Assembly: GCF_004364585.1 (NCBI RefSeq) | Contig: NZ_SOAN01000001.1 | Coordinates: 551,858 to 615,857 of the forward strand | From: Nesterenkonia aurantiaca | GTDB taxonomy: Bacteria; Actinomycetota; Actinomycetes; Actinomycetales; Micrococcaceae | Length of the DNA stretch: 64,000 bases | Direction of reading: 5' to 3' | Part shown: piece after piece, positions 9,165 to 42,641 of the stretch | How positions within the stretch are numbered: position 1 is the first letter of the stretch | Layout: each line of letters starts with the position of its first letter | Position numbers and translations under genes: made by a program | Notes under the pieces: generated by a model | Seen by the model: only the letters and a program-made list of their open reading frames with translations | Databases searched by the model: none | Told to the model about the DNA's origin: nothing

Positions 9165-10049
9165 TCAGTCCTGCTCCAGCAGACTCCGCAGAACCGGCAC
9201 CAGTCCGTCCTCCTCCACCGGGGCGGTGAGCTCATCGGCGACGTCGATGACCTCCTGGGGAGCCTGCCCCATGGCCACTCCGCGAGCCGCCCAGCCGAGC
9301 ATCTCGATGTCATTGCGCCCGTCTCCGACGGCCACGGTGTCCTCAGCCGGCACCGCAAGCCGTTCGCGCAGCGCCTCGAGCGAGGAGCCCTTGGTGACGC
9401 CGGCGGCGGCGATGTCCAGCCAAGCCGACCAGCCCACCGAGTAGGTGACTCCATGCAGCCCGATGCTCTGCACCGCGGTGGCGAACTCCTCGGCGGTGGC
9501 CTCGGTGGAGTTGACCACCAGCCGGACTGCCTCGGCTTCCTTCATCTCCTGGAAGCTCACGCCGCGGGCATCGAGGCCGAAGGACATGTCTTCGAAGCGC
9601 TCGGTGGAGAGGAAGTCCCCGACGGAGGTCTCGATGGCGTAGCGCGCGTTCGGCAGCCGGTCCATCAGCGCGTCGAGCGCGGGGGCGGGATCGAAGACCC
9701 TCCGGTCCAGGACCTCGTAGCCATCTTCCAGGGACACGTCGATCCGCACGGTGACTCCACCGTTGCTGCACACCGCGTAGCCCTGCTCGATGCCGAAGGT
9801 CTCGACCACCGGCAGCGTGGCCGGCAGGGACCGCCCGGTGGAGACCACGACCGTGTGACCCTCGGCCACCAGGGCGCGACCGGCCTGCTTCACGGCCTCG
9901 GACATCCGCCCGTCATGGAAGACGATGGTGCCGTCCACGTCGAGGCACACCATCTTCTTGCCCGGCGTATGGGAGAAGCTGCCGCCCGCACCTGCCGGCG
10001 GGATCGAGAACTCTTCAGAAGTTGTCATTGCCGATGTATTCATTGTCAT
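9165..10049 (-). CDS. Cof-type HAD-IIB phosphatase
   Basis: Haloacid dehalogenase superfamily hydrolase that probably dephosphorylates a sugar phosphate. The nucleophile motif LDVDGT is at 36-41 (Asp37, Asp39), the STGR segment follows, and the C-terminal metal motif GDGRNDIEML is intact, with a type IIB cap between. The first 30 residues are a Ser/Gly-rich extension. The start is uncertain: GTG at 10052, ATG at 10049, 10043 or 10031 are all in frame and none has a clear ribosome binding site. A second Cof-type paralogue is at 60908-61864. Confidence 0.9.
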   Translation of the reverse strand: MTMNTSAMTTSEEFSIPPAGAGGSFSHTPGKKMVCLDVDGTIVFHDGRMSEAVKQAGRALVAEGHTVVVSTGRSLPATLPVVETFGIEQGYAVCSNGGVTVRIDVSLEDGYEVLDRRVFDPAPALDALMDRLPNARYAIETSVGDFLSTERFEDMSFGLDARGVSFQEMKEAEAVRLVVNSTEATAEEFATAVQSIGLHGVTYSVGWSAWLDIAAAGVTKGSSLEALRERLAVPAEDTVAVGDGRNDIEMLGWAARGVAMGQAPQEVIDVADELTAPVEEDGLVPVLRSLLEQD

Positions 10050-10271
10050 CACACTCGCTCAGAAGGGGTAACCGGTCATTATGCCTCATCGGCCAGTCTC
10101 GCACCGTCGCACCCCCTGGTTCGGCACGAATAGGCCGAACTATGGCCTTTTGGGTACTGTTGCCCCACATGTAACTTCACGTTTCACTGCCGCGGCCCGC
10201 CCGGCCCTCAGCCGGGTCGGGGCAGTGCCAGGGGAACGCGAAGGATTGCGACCTTCGTAGGAGGCACCACA

Positions 10272-11612
10272 ATGGACGCGACGAACCCGGTATCCATTAC
10301 CGGCGGCGGATACTCGGCGCAGATCAGCCTCCTCGGCGGTCAGCTGCTGAACCTCACGCATCACGAGGACGAGCTCATCGTGCCCGCTGCCAAGACAGAG
10401 GGCGCCTTCGCCGGTGCCGTGCTGGCGCCCTGGCCCAACCGGACCAAGGGTGGGCGCTACACCTTCAACGGGGTGGAGCATCTGCTCCCGGTCAGCGAGG
10501 AGGCCACCGGGGCCGCGCTGCACGGACTGCTCATGGACCTTCCGCTGCGCGTGATCTCGCAGAAGGAGTCAGAGGTGCAGCTGGCGGGCTGGCTCGAGAG
10601 CTCGGAGGGGTACCCCTTCGGCCTGGACATCGCCCTGACCTACCGGGTCTCCGCGGACCTCGGCCTTGCCGCGACGCTGATGGCGCGCTACCGCCCCGAG
10701 GAGCTGACCGAGGATGCCACCCCGGGCCAGGATGAGCTGCCGGCCGAGCCGGAGGACACCGTCGAGCCTTCGGAAGGCCTCGAAGCCGCGGCCCCTGAGA
10801 CGCCGGAAGACGAGAGCAACGAGGACACCGGCGCAGAGCCGGCCGAGGCAGACCAGGCCGGCACAGACCAGGCCGAGGCAGCCGAGGGTGAGGGCGTGGA
10901 GCACGAGTTCGCAGCCTCTGCGAGCGAGGACCCGAGCGCCGAGGGTTCAGAGCCTGCGGGCTCTGAGGCTGCAGCCCCAGATGCTGAAGTGCCCGATGCT
11001 GAAGTGCCCGATGCCGAGGTGCCCGAGGACCCAGAGGCTGAGGCGTCTGAGCGCGATTCATCCGGGCCGTCCGAGGGCTCCGAGGCTGAGCCCACCGAGA
11101 CCGATGCATCCACTGCGTCCGAGTCGACCGAGACCGATCCGTCCCCCACGCCGGTTCCACAGACCGCGCCCTTCGGCGCCGGCTTCCATCCCTACCTGAC
11201 GGCCGGCGGGGCCTCGCTGCGGGAATGCCGACTGCGGCTCCCCGCGCGGACCATGCTCAAGACCAAGGCCGATGGCACCGTGACCGGTCGCAAGACCGTA
11301 GCTCAGGACTTCGACCTCACCAACGGTCCGCTGCTGTCAGGGCGCACCATCGATCACGCCTTCACCGACCTGCCCGAGGAGGGCTGGACCGCGGAACTCA
11401 TCCACGGCCCCTCGGGGTTCGTGGTGCGCATGATCGCTGATTCTCCCTGGGTCCAGGTCTACACCGGCGAGCGGATCGACCGCGCCGGCGTCGCCGTCGA
11501 ACCGATGACCTGCCCGCCGAATGCACTCAACAGCGGCGAGGATCTGATCCACCTGGAACCCGGGAAATGGTTCCGCATGGGCTACAGCATCGAAGCGATC
11601 CGCGCCGCCTGA
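10272..11612 (+). CDS. Aldose 1-epimerase family protein with large acidic insertion
   Basis: Mutarotase-like enzyme interconverting sugar anomers. The N-terminal part (1-140) carries APWPNR (52-57) and the catalytic-region GAALHGLL (80-87). The C-terminal part resumes at PFGAGFHPYLT (300-310) and includes VQVYTG and the GVAVEPMTCPPNA segment with the conserved Glu. Between them, residues about 141-298 are low-complexity Glu/Ala/Pro/Ser/Thr with three tandem PDAEV units (236-250). Ordinary homologues pass directly from a strand ending near ARN/ARY to the PFGAGFHPY motif at about 290-310 total residues, so about 158 residues have been inserted without breaking the frame. The start follows GTAGGAGGCACCACA. 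It is close to the xyl genes, so an intracellular role with xylose is plausible. Confidence 0.9.
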   Translation: MDATNPVSITGGGYSAQISLLGGQLLNLTHHEDELIVPAAKTEGAFAGAVLAPWPNRTKGGRYTFNGVEHLLPVSEEATGAALHGLLMDLPLRVISQKESEVQLAGWLESSEGYPFGLDIALTYRVSADLGLAATLMARYRPEELTEDATPGQDELPAEPEDTVEPSEGLEAAAPETPEDESNEDTGAEPAEADQAGTDQAEAAEGEGVEHEFAASASEDPSAEGSEPAGSEAAAPDAEVPDAEVPDAEVPEDPEAEASERDSSGPSEGSEAEPTETDASTASESTETDPSPTPVPQTAPFGAGFHPYLTAGGASLRECRLRLPARTMLKTKADGTVTGRKTVAQDFDLTNGPLLSGRTIDHAFTDLPEEGWTAELIHGPSGFVVRMIADSPWVQVYTGERIDRAGVAVEPMTCPPNALNSGEDLIHLEPGKWFRMGYSIEAIRAA

Positions 11613-11618
11613 TCCGGT

Positions 11619-12998
11619 TCACCCGGGCTGCGGGACCCACTGCAGCGGCGCGTCCACCACGCATCGCATCGCGCGCAGTGCTCCGCCGGTGGCGGCGGGG
11701 GCGGCCTGGGCCGAGGCCGTGCGCACCCTGAAGGTGCTCCATTGTGCCGAGAGCACCCGGGAGTTGAGCTCCTTCTCGATCCGGGGACGCAGCATGTCCG
11801 CCAGCGGGCCGTAGACCCCGCCGAGCACGATGTCGTGGACGTCGAGCAGGTTCATCGCGCCGGCCAAGGCCACGCCGAGCGCCCATCCGGCGCGGTCGAT
11901 CGCGTCGCAGGCGATCCGGCCGGCCTCGTCGTCGCGCTGACTGAGCTCCACGAGGTCCTGCGCGGTGGCGGTGCGCTCCATCCCGGCGGCCGCGAGCAGC
12001 GAACGCTTCCCGGCGTAGGTCTCCAGACAGCCCAGCGCCCCGCAGCTACACTGCGGGCCCTCGGGCTCCACCGAGATGTGCCCGATCTCCCCGGCCCAGC
12101 CGTGCTGGCCGACGTCGACCACTGATTCGATGACCACGGCGGCGCCGATGCCCATCTGCGCGGAGACGTAGAGGAAGGTCTGCTCCTGCTGATCTTTCGC
12201 CGCGAGCTCCTGCGCCACCGCGAGCGCGGCCAGCTTGGCCTCGTTCGCGGCGTGGATGAAGCCGCCGAAGGCATCACGGTGCTCCCCCACCAGCAGCGGC
12301 ACGGCGTCCACGCCGCGCCAGCCGAGGTTCGGGGCCAGCACCAGCGAGTGCTCATCGGCGCCGATCAGCCCGGGCAGCGCCAGGACGGTGCCGACCACGC
12401 GCGCCCCGCGGGCGGTGGCCTGCTGGGCCACGCGCAGCGCCATCGCCCCGGCCTGGGGCAGCACCGCCGAAGGATCCGAGCCGCGGAAGTCTCCGTCGAT
12501 GATCTCCTCGGCCAGGGTCTCCCCGGTCAGGTCCAGCGCACGCGCGGCCATGAAGTCCACGCTGATCTCCACGCCGAGCCCGGCCAGGGTCGCCCGCGCC
12601 GGATACAGCGGCACGGCGGGACGGCCACGGGAGCCGCCCCCCACTGCCGGGGAGCCCTCGCGGATGATCCCGGCGGCGAGCAGGTCATCGACCAGCCGGG
12701 AGACCGTGGAGCGGGTCATCCCGGTGCGCGTCGCCAGGTCGGCCCGGGAGAGCGGCTCCACGGCGGAGAAGATCTCCTCGGTGAGCAGCAGCAGGTTCGA
12801 TTCGCGCAGGGTCTCTTGACGCGCGCCGGGACGCGAGGACTGGTCACTCGGGCCGCCCTCCGCGCGCGGGGCGCGGGAGAAGTCGCCGCGGTCGTCTCCG
12901 GAGCTGCGGCCCAGACGGGCCAGCGAGCCGCGCGAGGTCACGCCGAAGGCGGTGCTGGGCCTGGGTCCTGCGGTCCTGCGGGTAGTGTCTTGGGTCAC
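11619..12998 (-). CDS. ROK-family transcriptional repressor (XylR-like)
   Basis: DNA-binding sugar-responsive repressor of 459 residues, divergent from xylA. The order is a disordered N-terminus (1-60), a winged helix (about 65-125, ATRTGMTRSTVSRLVDDLL), then a ROK sugar-kinase-like domain with the zinc-binding CSCGALGCLE motif and the preceding HISVEPEG. By position it most likely represses xylAB with xylose as inducer. The GTG at 12998 lies seven bases after a TAAGAT -10 box (13006-13011, reverse strand) that overlaps the -35 of the divergent xylA promoter, so the two promoters interfere and autoregulation is likely. It is convergent with the epimerase gene, 6 bp apart. Confidence 0.9.
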   Translation of the reverse strand: MTQDTTRRTAGPRPSTAFGVTSRGSLARLGRSSGDDRGDFSRAPRAEGGPSDQSSRPGARQETLRESNLLLLTEEIFSAVEPLSRADLATRTGMTRSTVSRLVDDLLAAGIIREGSPAVGGGSRGRPAVPLYPARATLAGLGVEISVDFMAARALDLTGETLAEEIIDGDFRGSDPSAVLPQAGAMALRVAQQATARGARVVGTVLALPGLIGADEHSLVLAPNLGWRGVDAVPLLVGEHRDAFGGFIHAANEAKLAALAVAQELAAKDQQEQTFLYVSAQMGIGAAVVIESVVDVGQHGWAGEIGHISVEPEGPQCSCGALGCLETYAGKRSLLAAAGMERTATAQDLVELSQRDDEAGRIACDAIDRAGWALGVALAGAMNLLDVHDIVLGGVYGPLADMLRPRIEKELNSRVLSAQWSTFRVRTASAQAAPAATGGALRAMRCVVDAPLQWVPQPG

Positions 12999-13048: not shown

Positions 13049-13113
13049 GAGTGCCGGGTCACAGCCTTCCCGGTGCACCCCGGAACCACACCTTTTCCTT
13101 GCAGGAGGCCCCC

Positions 13114-14295
13114 ATGGCATCGACGCCAGCATCTGACTACAAGCTCTCCTTCGGTCTCTGGACCGTCGGATGGACCGCGCAGGACCAGTTCGGGTCGGCC
13201 TCCCGTCCCGAGTTCGAGCCCTGGGAGTACCTGCCGAAGCTGAAGGAGGCCGGCGCGTCCGGCGTCACCTTCCATGACGACGACGTCGCCCCCTTCGGCA
13301 CCGATGACTCGGCGCGGGAGAAGTACTTCACCCGTTTCAAGGAGGTCGCCGATGAGGTCGGCCTGAAGGTCGAGATGGTCACCACCAACACCTTCTCCCA
13401 CCCGGTCTTCAAGGACGGCGGGCTCACCTCGAACGATCGCTCGGTGCGCCGCTTCGGGCTGCGCAAGCTGCTGCGCAACGTCGACCGCGCCGCCGAGTTC
13501 GGCGCCGAGACCTTCGTGATGTGGGGCGGGCGTGAAGGTGCGGAGTATGACGGCTCGAAGGACCTCTTCGCCGCCCACGAGCGCTACGCCGAAGGCGTGG
13601 ACACCATCGCCAGCTACATCAAGGACAAGGGCTATGACCTGCGCATCGCCCTGGAGCCCAAGCCCAACGAGCCGCGCGGCGACATCTTCCTGCCCACCAT
13701 CGGTCACGCGCTGGGCTTCATCGCCCAGCTCGAGCACGGCGACATCGTCGGGCTGAACCCGGAGACCGGCCACGAGCAGATGGCCGGGCTGAACTTCACC
13801 CACGGCATCGCCCAGGCGCTGTGGGCCGGCAAGCTCTTCCACATCGACCTCAACGGTCAGCGCTCGATCAAGTACGACCAGGACCTGGTCTTCGGCCACG
13901 GCGAGCTGGCCTCGGCGTTCTTCACCATCGACCTGCTGGTCAACGGCTTCCCCGGCGGCGGCCCCAGCTACGACGGCTGGATGCACTTCGACTACAAGCC
14001 CTCCCGCACCGACTACGTGCAGGGCATCTGGGACTCAGCGAAGGCCAACGTCGAGATGGTCACCATGCTCGCGGACAAGTCCAAGGCCTTCCGCGCGGAC
14101 CCCGAGGTCCAGGCCGCCCTGAAGGCCTCCGGGGTCTACGAGCTCGGCGAGACCACCCTGGCCGCCGGCGAATCGCTCACCGACTTCCTGGCTGACACCT
14201 CCACCTACGAGAACTTCGACGTGGACAAGGCGGCCGAGCGCAACTACGGCTTCGTGAACCTCAACCAGCTGGCCATGAAGCACCTGATCGGCTGA
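13114..14295 (+). CDS. xylA: Xylose isomerase
   Basis: Converts D-xylose to D-xylulose in the cytosol; metal-dependent TIM barrel. The 393 residues match class I actinobacterial enzymes. The [11 protein letters not shown] active-site segment, [10 protein letters not shown] with metal-binding Glu, [11 protein letters not shown] and FHIDLNGQ are all present. The ATG at 13114 is preceded by GCAGGAGGC, while an upstream in-frame ATG at 13051 lacks one. It is first in the xylAB unit and is divergent from the ROK repressor. Confidence 0.98.
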
Positions 14296-14497: not shown

Positions 14498-15943
14498 ATG
14501 CCTACTCTGGTCGCAGGTATCGACTCCTCCACCCAGTCCTGCAAGGTCGTCATCCGTGACGCGCACACCGGGGAGCTGGTGCGCACCGGCTCCGCGAAGC
14601 ACCCTGAGGGGACCGAGGTCGCCCCGGCCGCCTGGTGGGATGCCCTGCTGGACGCCATAGCGGCCGCCGGCGGGCTCGCCGACGTCGCGGCCGCCTCGGT
14701 GGGCGGGCAGCAGCACGGCATGGTCGCCCTGGACGCCGAGGGCGAGGTGATCCGTGACGCGCTGCTCTGGAACGACACCCGCTCCGCCGATGCCGCCGCC
14801 CAGCTGATCGCCGAATTCGGCGGCGGCGCCGAGGGCGCGGCGGCCTGGACCTCGATGACCGGGTCGGTGCCGGTGGCCTCATTGACCGTGACCAAGCTGC
14901 GCTGGCTCGCTGATGCTGAACCGGAGAACGCCGGCCGCGTGGCCGCCGTCGCACTCCCCCATGACTGGCTGACCTGGAAGCTTTCGGGCTCCACTGAGCT
15001 GGCGGACCTGGTCACCGACCGCTCCGACGCCTCAGGCACCGGCTACTTCGACGCCGCCACCGGCAGCTACCGCTACGACCTTCTGGCCCGCGCGCTGCGG
15101 ATCAGCGAGGATGCCGCCCGGGCGATCATCCTGCCCCGGGTCGCCGGTCCGCAGGAGCAGGTGGGCACCGGCGACGCAGCCCGCGACTGGGCGCACCTGC
15201 TCCTGGGCCCCGGCGCCGGAGACAACGCCGCCGCAGCCCTGGGGCTGGGCATGCGCACCGGCGACGTGGCGATCTCCATCGGCACCTCCGGAGTGGTGTC
15301 TGCGGTCTCGCCGAAGCCGATCCAGGACCCTTCAGGCATGGTCACCGGATTCGCCGATGCCACCGGCGAGTTCCTGCCGCTCGCGGTGACCCTCAACGGA
15401 TCCCGGGTCCTCGACGGTGCCGCGAAGATGCTCGGGGTGGACCATGCCGGTCTGGCAGACCTCGCCCTGGCCGCGGCGCCCGGTGCGAACGGGCTGACCC
15501 TGGTGCCCTATCTCGAGGGCGAGCGCACCCCGAACCTCCCTCACGCCACCGGCTCCTTCATCGGCCTGACCCTGGCCTCGATGAACCCCCAGGACGTGGC
15601 CCGTGCGGCCGTGGAGGGCCTGCTCTGCGGGCTCGCCGACGGCCTGGAGGCGATGACCTCCCAGGGCGTCCCGGTGGAATCCATCACGCTGATCGGCGGC
15701 GCCGCCCGCTCCGCGGCCGTGCAGCAGATCGCCCCGGCGATCCTGGGCCGCGAGGTCAGCGTCCCGGCCCCGGGCGAGTACGTGGCCGACGGCGCTGCGC
15801 GTCAGGCCGCCTGGGTGCTCTCCGGCGCGGCCCAGCCGCCGGCCTGGTCCACGGTAGAGACCCAGACCATCACCGGCACCCCGACCCCGGAGGTCCGCCA
15901 CGCCTATGCAGCCCGTCGCGACCTGATCGCCGAGAAGCACTGA
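14498..15943 (+). CDS. xylB: Xylulokinase
   Basis: FGGY-family kinase that phosphorylates D-xylulose to xylulose 5-phosphate for the pentose phosphate pathway. It is 481 residues long. The N-terminal phosphate-binding segment [10 protein letters not shown] (7-16), the substrate motif GGQQHGM, WNDTRS, and the C-terminal [11 protein letters not shown] segment are visible. The start has AAGGACACTGC upstream. A 202-bp gap separates it from xylA; no clear terminator or promoter was seen there, so the two are probably co-transcribed. Confidence 0.97.
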
Positions 15944-40788: not shown

Positions 40789-42222
40789 TCAGACGCCTGC
40801 TTCTTCAAGGATGCCGCGGCACTCCTCGAAGCTGGCGTCATCCTCCCAGGCGGACGCACCTTCTTCATGCTCCACCAGCGTGCGCTGAAGGATGCAGTAG
40901 GTGGGCTTGCGCTCGTAGTCACCCTCATGCAGGGTCGCGTCGCCCTCACCGGGGAAGGTGTTGGGCACCCAGCTCTGCGCATCCAGGGTTCCCCAGATGG
41001 TGAAGGAGTTGCACAGGCTCACGTCCAGGCAGGCCTGCAGCACCGTGGCGTAGCGCTCTGCGGCGCCCGCGCGATCCTCCGGCGACATCATGTCGTTCTC
41101 ATCGACCTCGCCGCGCACGTCGATCTCGGTCACCGCGGTGTGGATGCCCAGGTCGTCGAAGCGCTGGAGATTCTCCTGGTAGCTGTCGTCGAACCCGTAC
41201 TGCATGGACAGATGGGTCTGGGCGCCGAAGCCGTGCACCGGGACTCCACGTTCGAGCTGCTCGCTGATCAGGTCGTAGTACCGATCGGCCTTGGCGTTGA
41301 GGCCATCCACGTTGTAGTCGTTGTAGAACAGCAGCGCGTCAGGATCCTCCTCATGCGCCCAGGTGAAGATGTCGTCAAGGATCTCGGGCCCCAGCTCGCG
41401 GATCCAGATGTTCTCGCTGTCGCGGATGCTCGCGGCCTCGTCGTCCTGGAAGATCTCATTGGCCACGTCCCACTGGTCGATGCAGCCGGCATAGCGCGAG
41501 ACCACGGTGCGGACATGGTCTTCGAGGATCTCGCGCAGCTCAGCCTCGGAGAAGTCACCCTCCTCGAGCCAGTCCGGGTTCTGCGAGTGCCAGGACAGGG
41601 CATGGCCGCGCAGATCCATACCGTTGACCTCCGCGAAGGCGACGACGGCGTCGGCCTGCTCGAAGTCGTAGACCCCCTGCTCCGGCTGGACGAACTCCCA
41701 CTTCAGGTAGTTCTCGTGGGTCACCGACGAATACTCCTGGGCGACATGATCCCGGTACTCCGGGTCCGAGGGGAACGGATCGGGGTAGTCGGCGTCGGAG
41801 TGGTGTCCGCCGCCAGCCGCGATGTTGCCGATCCGCAGATCCTCCGGAGCGACGCCGGCCAGGGAGTCGCGCTCCCAGGCGCCCTCGACGGCACCACCCT
41901 CCGGCGTGAACTGACACTGGGTCTGCCCGGGCGCGTCCGTTCCCCCGCCGTGGCCGGGTCCCTTTCCGTTGCCCTTGGCGTGATCCGGAGGTCCGGGCTG
42001 ACCCGCATGATCGGGCTTGCCGGGCTGGCCCGCGTGATCGGGGCGCCCCTGGGACTTCTGTCCCTGCTTGTCCGCGGCCTTGGCGGCGATTCCTTCATCT
42101 GCTGTCTGGCTGCTGGCCTGGTGTGCCGGGACAGCGCCTGCCATGGCGGGCGTGCCGAGCGCGAGTGCGCCCGCACAGACCACCGCGGCGGCCAACGTTC
42201 GTCGGTTCGATCGGGTGAACAT
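40789..42222 (-). CDS. Secreted endo-1,4-beta-xylanase, GH10
   Basis: Extracellular enzyme cutting internal xylan bonds, 477 residues. The signal peptide ends near AMA (about 28). A linker (about 50-100) rich in Gly, Pro, His and Lys carries repeated PDHAGQPG units, then a GH10 TIM barrel with acid/base Glu256 in WDVANEIF and nucleophile Glu366 in AVTEIDVR. No carbohydrate-binding module is seen; the linker sits before, not after, the catalytic domain. The ATG at 42222 has GAGGAGAATGC upstream. The gene lies between the lipid kinase gene and pheA, neighbours that are usually adjacent in relatives, so it looks inserted. The promoter at 42367-42419 resembles that of binding protein 1. Confidence 0.95.
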   Translation of the reverse strand: MFTRSNRRTLAAAVVCAGALALGTPAMAGAVPAHQASSQTADEGIAAKAADKQGQKSQGRPDHAGQPGKPDHAGQPGPPDHAKGNGKGPGHGGGTDAPGQTQCQFTPEGGAVEGAWERDSLAGVAPEDLRIGNIAAGGGHHSDADYPDPFPSDPEYRDHVAQEYSSVTHENYLKWEFVQPEQGVYDFEQADAVVAFAEVNGMDLRGHALSWHSQNPDWLEEGDFSEAELREILEDHVRTVVSRYAGCIDQWDVANEIFQDDEAASIRDSENIWIRELGPEILDDIFTWAHEEDPDALLFYNDYNVDGLNAKADRYYDLISEQLERGVPVHGFGAQTHLSMQYGFDDSYQENLQRFDDLGIHTAVTEIDVRGEVDENDMMSPEDRAGAAERYATVLQACLDVSLCNSFTIWGTLDAQSWVPNTFPGEGDATLHEGDYERKPTYCILQRTLVEHEEGASAWEDDASFEECRGILEEAGV

Positions 42223-42366
42223 GCATTCTCCTCGTTGTCGCCATTGACTTGCATGGACGGCGGCGTGTGCCGCGATACAAGAGGGCGGCCCGGACCCCTC
42301 GGTCCCAAGAACCCGCTGAGCAAGACTTCTACACCACGAGATATCGGAAATGTGAGTCAGGACACC

Positions 42367-42419
42367 ATTTTGTATCACGAGAAGACTAAAAAAAGATCAC
42401 AGCTGTGTCAAGGCTCACA
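42367..42419 (-). promoter_or_regulatory. Xylanase promoter with CRP/GlxR-like site over the -35 (gap 42223-42614)
   Basis: Reverse strand TTGACA (42406-42411), 17-bp spacer, TAGTCT (42383-42388). TGTGTCAAGGCTCACA (42404-42419) covers the -35. An ATTTTG block (42367-42372) lies 10 bp past the -10, at exactly the same position as in the 28079-28129 promoter. The untranslated leader would be about 150 bases. The remainder of this 392-bp gap is taken by the 83-bp tandem repeat next to pheA. Confidence 0.7.
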
Positions 42420-42445
42420 CGGCTTCCAGTCACGGGTCTGGGCGC

Positions 42446-42641
42446 GCTTACGCGTATCTGAAGCGAGCTGATCCCACTCCCCCGGCTCCCACCCTCGGCT
42501 TCGCCGAGCGCGGGGCCCGCGCCGGGCTCGCTTACGCGTGTCTCAGCGAGCTGATCCCACTCCCCCGGCTCCCGCCCTCGGCTTCGCCGAGCGCGGGGCC
42601 CGCGCCGGGCTCGCTTACGCGTGTCTCAGCGAGCTGATCCA
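42446..42641. repeat. Tandem 83-84-bp repeat containing the pheA 3' end
   Basis: Two full units (42446-42529 and 42530-42612) and a partial third (42613-42641), which is the real end of pheA. Each unit contains the pheA stop region (GCTTACGCG... on the plus strand) and then a CTCGGC-TTC-GCCGAG hairpin. The unit furthest from pheA carries a few changes and one inserted base, so it is the oldest or least constrained copy. Confidence 0.9.

Follow-up and report, generated by a model that had tools for sequence, protein, structure and literature searches.

Clade-shared, fast-evolving acidic loop expansion within an aldose 1-epimerase of Nesterenkonia

The aldose 1-epimerase encoded in the window analyzed here, a stretch of 64,000 nucleotides from Nesterenkonia aurantiaca, is interrupted between the two halves of its catalytic domain by 157 acidic, partly repetitive residues, and comparison with orthologous genes reveals a real expansion of a single loop, shared by a clade of Nesterenkonia species and turning over rapidly within an enzyme that has conserved its catalytic residues. 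The explanation that we favor, and to which we would give an even chance, is that the insert is a solvent-exposed, disordered loop that has grown by duplication and acts as an entropic or hydration bristle on an intact epimerase. The gene and its parts are as follows.

10272-11612, plus strand: aldose 1-epimerase gene, 446 amino acids (open reading frame; PF01263)
10272-10691, plus strand: N-terminal half of the catalytic domain, residues 1-140, with H84 (alignment of 27 orthologues)
10692-11162, plus strand: acidic, low-hydrophobic, probably disordered insert, residues 141-297, 157 amino acids (alignment and composition)
10833-10881, plus strand: tandem array of 3.3 copies of a 15-bp unit, within the insert (TRF)
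10977-11021, plus strand: three PDAEV units, 15-bp tandem array (TRF 10980-11026, 93% matches)
11163-11609, plus strand: C-terminal half of the catalytic domain, residues 298-446, with the GFHPY histidine H306, D361 and E410 (alignment; NF011719 match)

The unbroken frame through an acidic insert that the initial annotation had described is borne out by the open frame at 10272-11612, the product of which matches the PF01263 (Aldose_epim) profile with 126.6 bits (cut-off 27), split in two stretches. The insert limits are likewise in agreement, save that the end formerly given, 11165, takes in T298. The N-terminal half closes with LMARY (residue 140) and the C-terminal half opens with TAPFGAGFHPY (residue 298), so that eight residues lie between the insert and H306 in sequence. 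H84, H306, D361 and E410, which by analogy with GalM we take to be the catalytic His, His, Asp and Glu, are all present in the protein; the first three are invariant in the alignment of 27 orthologues and E410 is nearly so, one row (L010) stopping at a contig edge ahead of it. The profile NF011719, an equivalog of PRK15172-like aldose-1-epimerases, also matches in two stretches, its positions 152-297 corresponding to residues 297-442, and gives 208.1 bits, below its cut-off of 251, a score that the insert may have lowered. The protein is thus similar to PF01263 and PRK15172-like enzymes in possessing both domain halves and the catalytic residues, and differs from them in that some 150 extra residues split the domain and in falling under the NF011719 cut-off. 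The Leloir-type profile TIGR02636 (galM_Leloir) gives 24.1 bits, far under its cut-off of 397.65. In a profile search of the PDB with the short-loop orthologues, the loop in question sits just ahead of PFGTGWHPYF of 3nre_A (E-value 1.2e-05). No export signal was seen by eye at the N terminus.

The epimerase gene is embedded in the following neighborhood.

9168-10052, minus strand: HAD-family hydrolase, divergent neighbor of the epimerase gene (PF08282)
11622-12998, minus strand: ROK-family regulator, convergent neighbor of the epimerase gene (PF00480)
13051-14292, plus strand: xylose isomerase XylA (TIGR02631, 587.7 bits, cut-off 447)
14498-15940, plus strand: xylulokinase XylB (TIGR01312, 392.7 bits, cut-off 380.25)

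Beyond xylB lie a LacI-type regulator and then ABC sugar-transporter genes. A relative of the HAD protein adjoins the epimerase gene in all 28 loci of the genus (L001-L028), and a relative of XylB (54-56% identity) is found near it in 5 of the 8 loci compared outside the genus. Because the gene stands in a xylose locus, the epimerase is probably the xylose mutarotase of that locus, an activity that is here predicted.

The composition of the insert sets it apart from the enzyme that carries it. Asp and Glu make up 33% of its residues, Lys and Arg 1.3% and the order-promoting residues (W, C, F, I, Y, V and L) 6%, compared with 11%, 8% and 30%, respectively, in the catalytic core. The three PDAEV units and the acidic, repeat-bearing character reported at first inspection are therefore confirmed. 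Under the boundary formula of the charge-hydropathy rule, each of the 11 inserts of at least 46 residues found in the genus falls on the disordered side. Tandem units were detected by TRF in 10 of these 11 inserts, all except that of G021, and they cover 8-41% of each; among the 31 TRF rows involved, the period is 15 bp in 17 and 30 bp in 4, and the inserts of G011 and G008 present only other periods (6, 18 and 24). Two of the interpretations first offered, an exposed disordered domain and a grown simple-sequence tract, hence fit the data and fit together, and a role in solubility in salt would be plausible; a localization or binding tag, the third, is taken up below. An AlphaFold model built from a four-row alignment has a mean pLDDT of 32 over the whole protein and says nothing on the insert. 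Open frames in other phases overlap the insert (10688-11149, minus strand, and 10714-11199, plus strand), and these are presumed to be a by-product of a stop-poor, GC-rich repeat. The 15-bp period that prevails in the epimerase inserts is also the most frequent one in the window as a whole, where it accounts for 9 of 27 TRF rows; arrays lie, for example, at 10833, 10980, 21977, 26070, 57683 and 62488. The window also contains an 83-bp direct tandem repeat (42440-42640; 2.4 copies, 95% matches), located upstream of the called gene at 40792-42378 on the minus strand.

The epimerase gene was found in 28 of the 30 Nesterenkonia genomes searched, the source genome (G000) included, and no match was obtained in the other two (G007 and G012). 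Loop length at the insert site can be measured in 27 orthologues, and amounts to 85-168 residues in 10 of them, to 46 in one (G021) and to 9-20 in the remaining 16. These 27 leave aside the orthologue of G014 (L028, G014:C1:475993-476878), which is split over frames with an internal stop, through either breakage of the gene or faulty assembly, also has a short loop and was kept out of the trees; a 47-residue match at a contig end in G027 was not counted either. The longest insert, of 168 residues, belongs to G028, where the contig stops within the gene, past the insert. Acidic residues outnumber basic ones in 15 of the 16 short loops, as in VPENPGDDEATNAPA and TPIEEDGDDSVLP, G015 being the exception. 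Two short-loop relatives present extra residues in other loops of the epimerase: L027 has a small insert, TAGGDDDGAATPS, near the C terminus, and L016 has about 18 extra residues ahead of GFLGAVLAPWPNR.

Outside the genus, the two epimerase matches are separated by 18-24 nt in all 8 loci examined, and by 9-54 nt in the 22 genomes of the family that show both halves among the matches listed; judged by eye, no more than 63 nt lie between the halves in 53 of 54 pairs among the matches listed, a set that overlaps with the previous one. In G350, the exception among the 54 pairs, direct reading gives a loop of about 20 residues. Three weak matches to genome contigs that cover only the insert (L042-L044) were not counted. 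The sampled genomes outside the genus, then, have loops of about 5-20 residues at this site and lack the acid-rich insert, and short-loop species also occur within Nesterenkonia itself. The statement of the initial annotation that homologues have no such insertion consequently stands for the genomes sampled outside the genus and fails within it, where 10 of the 27 measurable orthologues carry 85-168 residues; the comparison with close relatives that it had proposed uncovered long inserts at the same point in nine genomes besides the source, so that the general absence among close relatives which it had named as a refutation is not what is seen.

In a tree of the epimerase core and the neighboring HAD protein, nine long-insert species form a single clade (support 100/99), with inserts of 85-167 residues and no reversion to a short loop. 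G028 falls elsewhere, and the tree requires three changes between long and short loops. The AU test does not reject a union of G028 with the main clade (p-AU 0.29) and is marginal for a union with G021 (0.036 together with G028, 0.050 alone), but these values serve only as a guide, since the groups were named after the first tree had been inspected and G028, G021 and G015 are long branches. A second, separate growth of the loop in G021 is moderately supported. The tree was computed without an outgroup because the only row from outside the genus in the first tree, L037, stood on an absurdly long branch; being unrooted, it leaves the direction of change to be read from the short loops of genomes outside the genus, and the simplest account is that an acidic short turn has grown, on one occasion or several.

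The mechanism that we propose would start from such a turn, short (9-20 residues) and mostly acidic, which in one Nesterenkonia clade would have been lengthened to 85-167 residues as short units, often of 15 bp (five codons), were duplicated in frame again and again, accompanied by fast substitution. The bulk character of the insert, strongly negative and poor in hydrophobic and basic residues, would have been kept while its sequence was not, and the charged, unfolded chain would keep the enzyme soluble and repel aggregation in a salty or crowded cytoplasm, leaving catalysis untouched. The disordered bristle is suggested by the composition, which places 11 of 11 inserts in the disordered class of the charge-hydropathy rule, together with a turnover that proceeds without loss of character.

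That turnover is considerable. N. aurantiaca and its sister species (G022) share 96% identity in the core (dS 0.16), whereas their inserts, of 157 and 123 residues, are 57% identical over the part that can be aligned; for the four members of the nine-species clade that lie farthest from N. aurantiaca, the values are 81-82% for the core and 29-38% for the insert. All 11 inserts nevertheless contain 31-39% Asp/Glu and 0-4% Lys/Arg, and in the ten longest the Asp/Glu fraction outside the detected tandem arrays is 0.29-0.36. When the insert DNA is shuffled by codon position, the Asp/Glu fraction is lower than observed (0.23-0.31) and that of Lys/Arg is 0.01-0.05, so that the scarcity of basic residues is largely a matter of base composition at the codon positions. 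Neutral simulations starting from the N. aurantiaca insert (40 runs per setting) reach Asp/Glu fractions of 0.325, near the observed values, at t=0.1, give means of 0.17-0.22 with a highest run of 0.27 at t=0.25, and give means of 0.10-0.15 at t=0.5, the deepest split of the clade having a core dS of 0.62-0.73, that is, 0.31-0.37 per lineage; since these simulations start from an observed insert and include no slippage, renewal by duplication could equally hold the composition. Close pairs give a mixed picture. Charge-changing substitutions in the insert number 2 against 6.1 expected between G000 and G022, and 6 against 6.1 expected, 4 of them involving basic residues, between G023 and G026, and three other close pairs present merely 6, 2 and 3 changed residues. 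The ratio of nonsynonymous to synonymous codons in the insert is 3.0 against a neutral 2.81 in the alignable part of the former pair, and 1.30 against 2.87 in the latter. Selection is thus likely, and graded no higher than that, to keep the bulk charge of the insert, because the long-range composition speaks for it while the close-pair counts are mixed and the simulation lacks slippage.

The main rival to a bristle is neutral growth, which would posit a loop tolerant of length that replication slippage of acidic-codon repeats goes on extending to no useful end, with selection removing only frameshifts, stops and sticky or positively charged stretches. We regard this as a real possibility, though one that falls short of an even chance. 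The tandem units present in 10 of the 11 inserts, covering up to 41%, speak for it; so do the wide range of lengths (46-168 residues), the near-neutral substitution between the G000 and G022 inserts and the fact that charge changes are not depleted between G023 and G026. It accounts less readily for a composition that stays in a narrow band across lineages, also outside the detected arrays, for the nine species of the clade showing no return to a short loop, and for the insert of G021, where this loop probably grew a second time, being acidic as well.

A specific binding or localization module, for instance a tether to XylA, to a transporter or to the nucleoid, or a site for cations, seems improbable to us, even if the gene sits in a xylose locus and an AASASED-like motif is common to the inserts of G000, G019, G018 and G024. 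This motif, the only internal one looked for, is missing from the other 7 of the 11 inserts, and little else lines up in the middle of the insert in the four-row alignment; the tag first suggested for this region accordingly finds little support. Less probable still, by analogy with the cysteinyl-tRNA synthetase (CysRS) of Halobacterium, would be a halophile-type catalytic insertion, an acidic peptide near the active site that raises turnover or stability at low salt. PMC3787623 describes the CysRS insertion as an acidic one close to the active site, and eight residues separate the epimerase insert from the GFHPY histidine, but the epimerase insert exceeds the 20 residues of CysRS many times over and its extreme sequence turnover runs counter to a fitted catalytic role. 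Nothing was found in favor of an assembly error or a miscalled frame, which is very unlikely indeed, since nine genomes besides the source carry long, in-frame inserts at the same point.

Returning to the disordered bristle, the insert stands out within its own genome. A simple script of our own called 365 genes in about 460 kb of the N. aurantiaca genome (20 stretches, the last two of which overlap by 4 kb); some of the low-scoring calls may be false frames. None of the other acidic, low-hydrophobic tracts in these genes, 29 with the insert included, is as long as the insert; by position, 11 of the 29 are internal, 9 lie close to an N terminus and 7 close to a C terminus, and 2 extend over short proteins. 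Low-hydrophobic segments of this genome are not in general so acidic: of 298 such segments, kept of 372 after a coding-score filter, 29 have a net charge per residue of -0.15 or below, and the median Asp/Glu fraction is 0.14. In a second long-insert species, G018, the epimerase insert ranks second of 37 acidic tracts. The proteome sample of N. aurantiaca is only mildly acidic (12.1% D+E, 8.8% K+R) and does not, for this reason, indicate a salt-in lifestyle.

Acidic tracts were also observed in other proteins. An HtrA-like protease of the same genome (Trypsin_2 and PDZ; L046:16605-18353, minus strand) has a 60-residue acidic tract within its trypsin-domain match, and a comparable tract occurs in a protein of the short-loop species G015 (L074:1710-3314) that looks similar, a likeness noted without alignment. 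Two ABC-transporter ATPases, of 764 residues in G018 (L099:2236-4527) and of 400 residues in G015 (L075:4258-5457), have acidic, low-complexity C-terminal regions and both match PF00005 at 19-166; if orthologous, they would constitute a second case of lineage-specific acidic growth.

The nearest known kind of element is the acidic halophilic peptide insertion. Such insertions, typically acid-rich, are known from archaeal proteins according to PMC3787623, which names the CysRS of Halobacterium sp. NRC-1 and the seryl-tRNA synthetase and ferredoxin of Haloarcula, and may sit within the protein or at one end; the CysRS insertion, of 20 residues near the active site, is reported in PMC3787623 and PMC3988381 to raise turnover. 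The epimerase insert is similar in being an acid-rich peptide added within an otherwise ordinary enzyme. It differs in its length (85-168 residues), in being hypervariable between sister species and made partly of tandem units, and in residing in a bacterium, the proteome sample of which is only mildly acidic. A second parallel is offered by yeast, where highly diverged disordered regions keep bulk features, termed evolutionary signatures in PMC6634968. The epimerase insert shares with these regions a poorly alignable sequence with retained bulk features, and departs from them in lying inside a single bacterial enzyme domain and in that the constraint on its features is, in our case, inferred. 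In the literature searched we found no report of the epimerase insert, the term matches in PMC5466422 and PMC7764121 being passages on unrelated matters.

Entropic bristles and acidic solubility tags consist of a charged, unfolded chain joined to a folded protein. The insert would have the same design, a charged and predictedly unfolded chain on a folded enzyme, with the difference that it is natural and internal to the catalytic domain. We may even speculate, while considering it rather unlikely, that Nesterenkonia species use this loop as a module of quickly adjustable charge: in-frame duplications, often of 15 bp, would act as a length dial for the solubility or salt response of one metabolic enzyme, net charge and disorder would be all that selection sees, and the loop would have been put to this use on two or more independent occasions.

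The epimerase also illustrates that family searches may reveal a large insertion within a catalytic domain only as a split match. With a well-kept epimerase core, acidic inserts of 85 to 168 residues and short-loop relatives, the genus Nesterenkonia provides a natural length series, which makes it possible to test directly whether a disordered insert sets the solubility, salt response or activity of the enzyme through its length and bulk charge rather than through its sequence.
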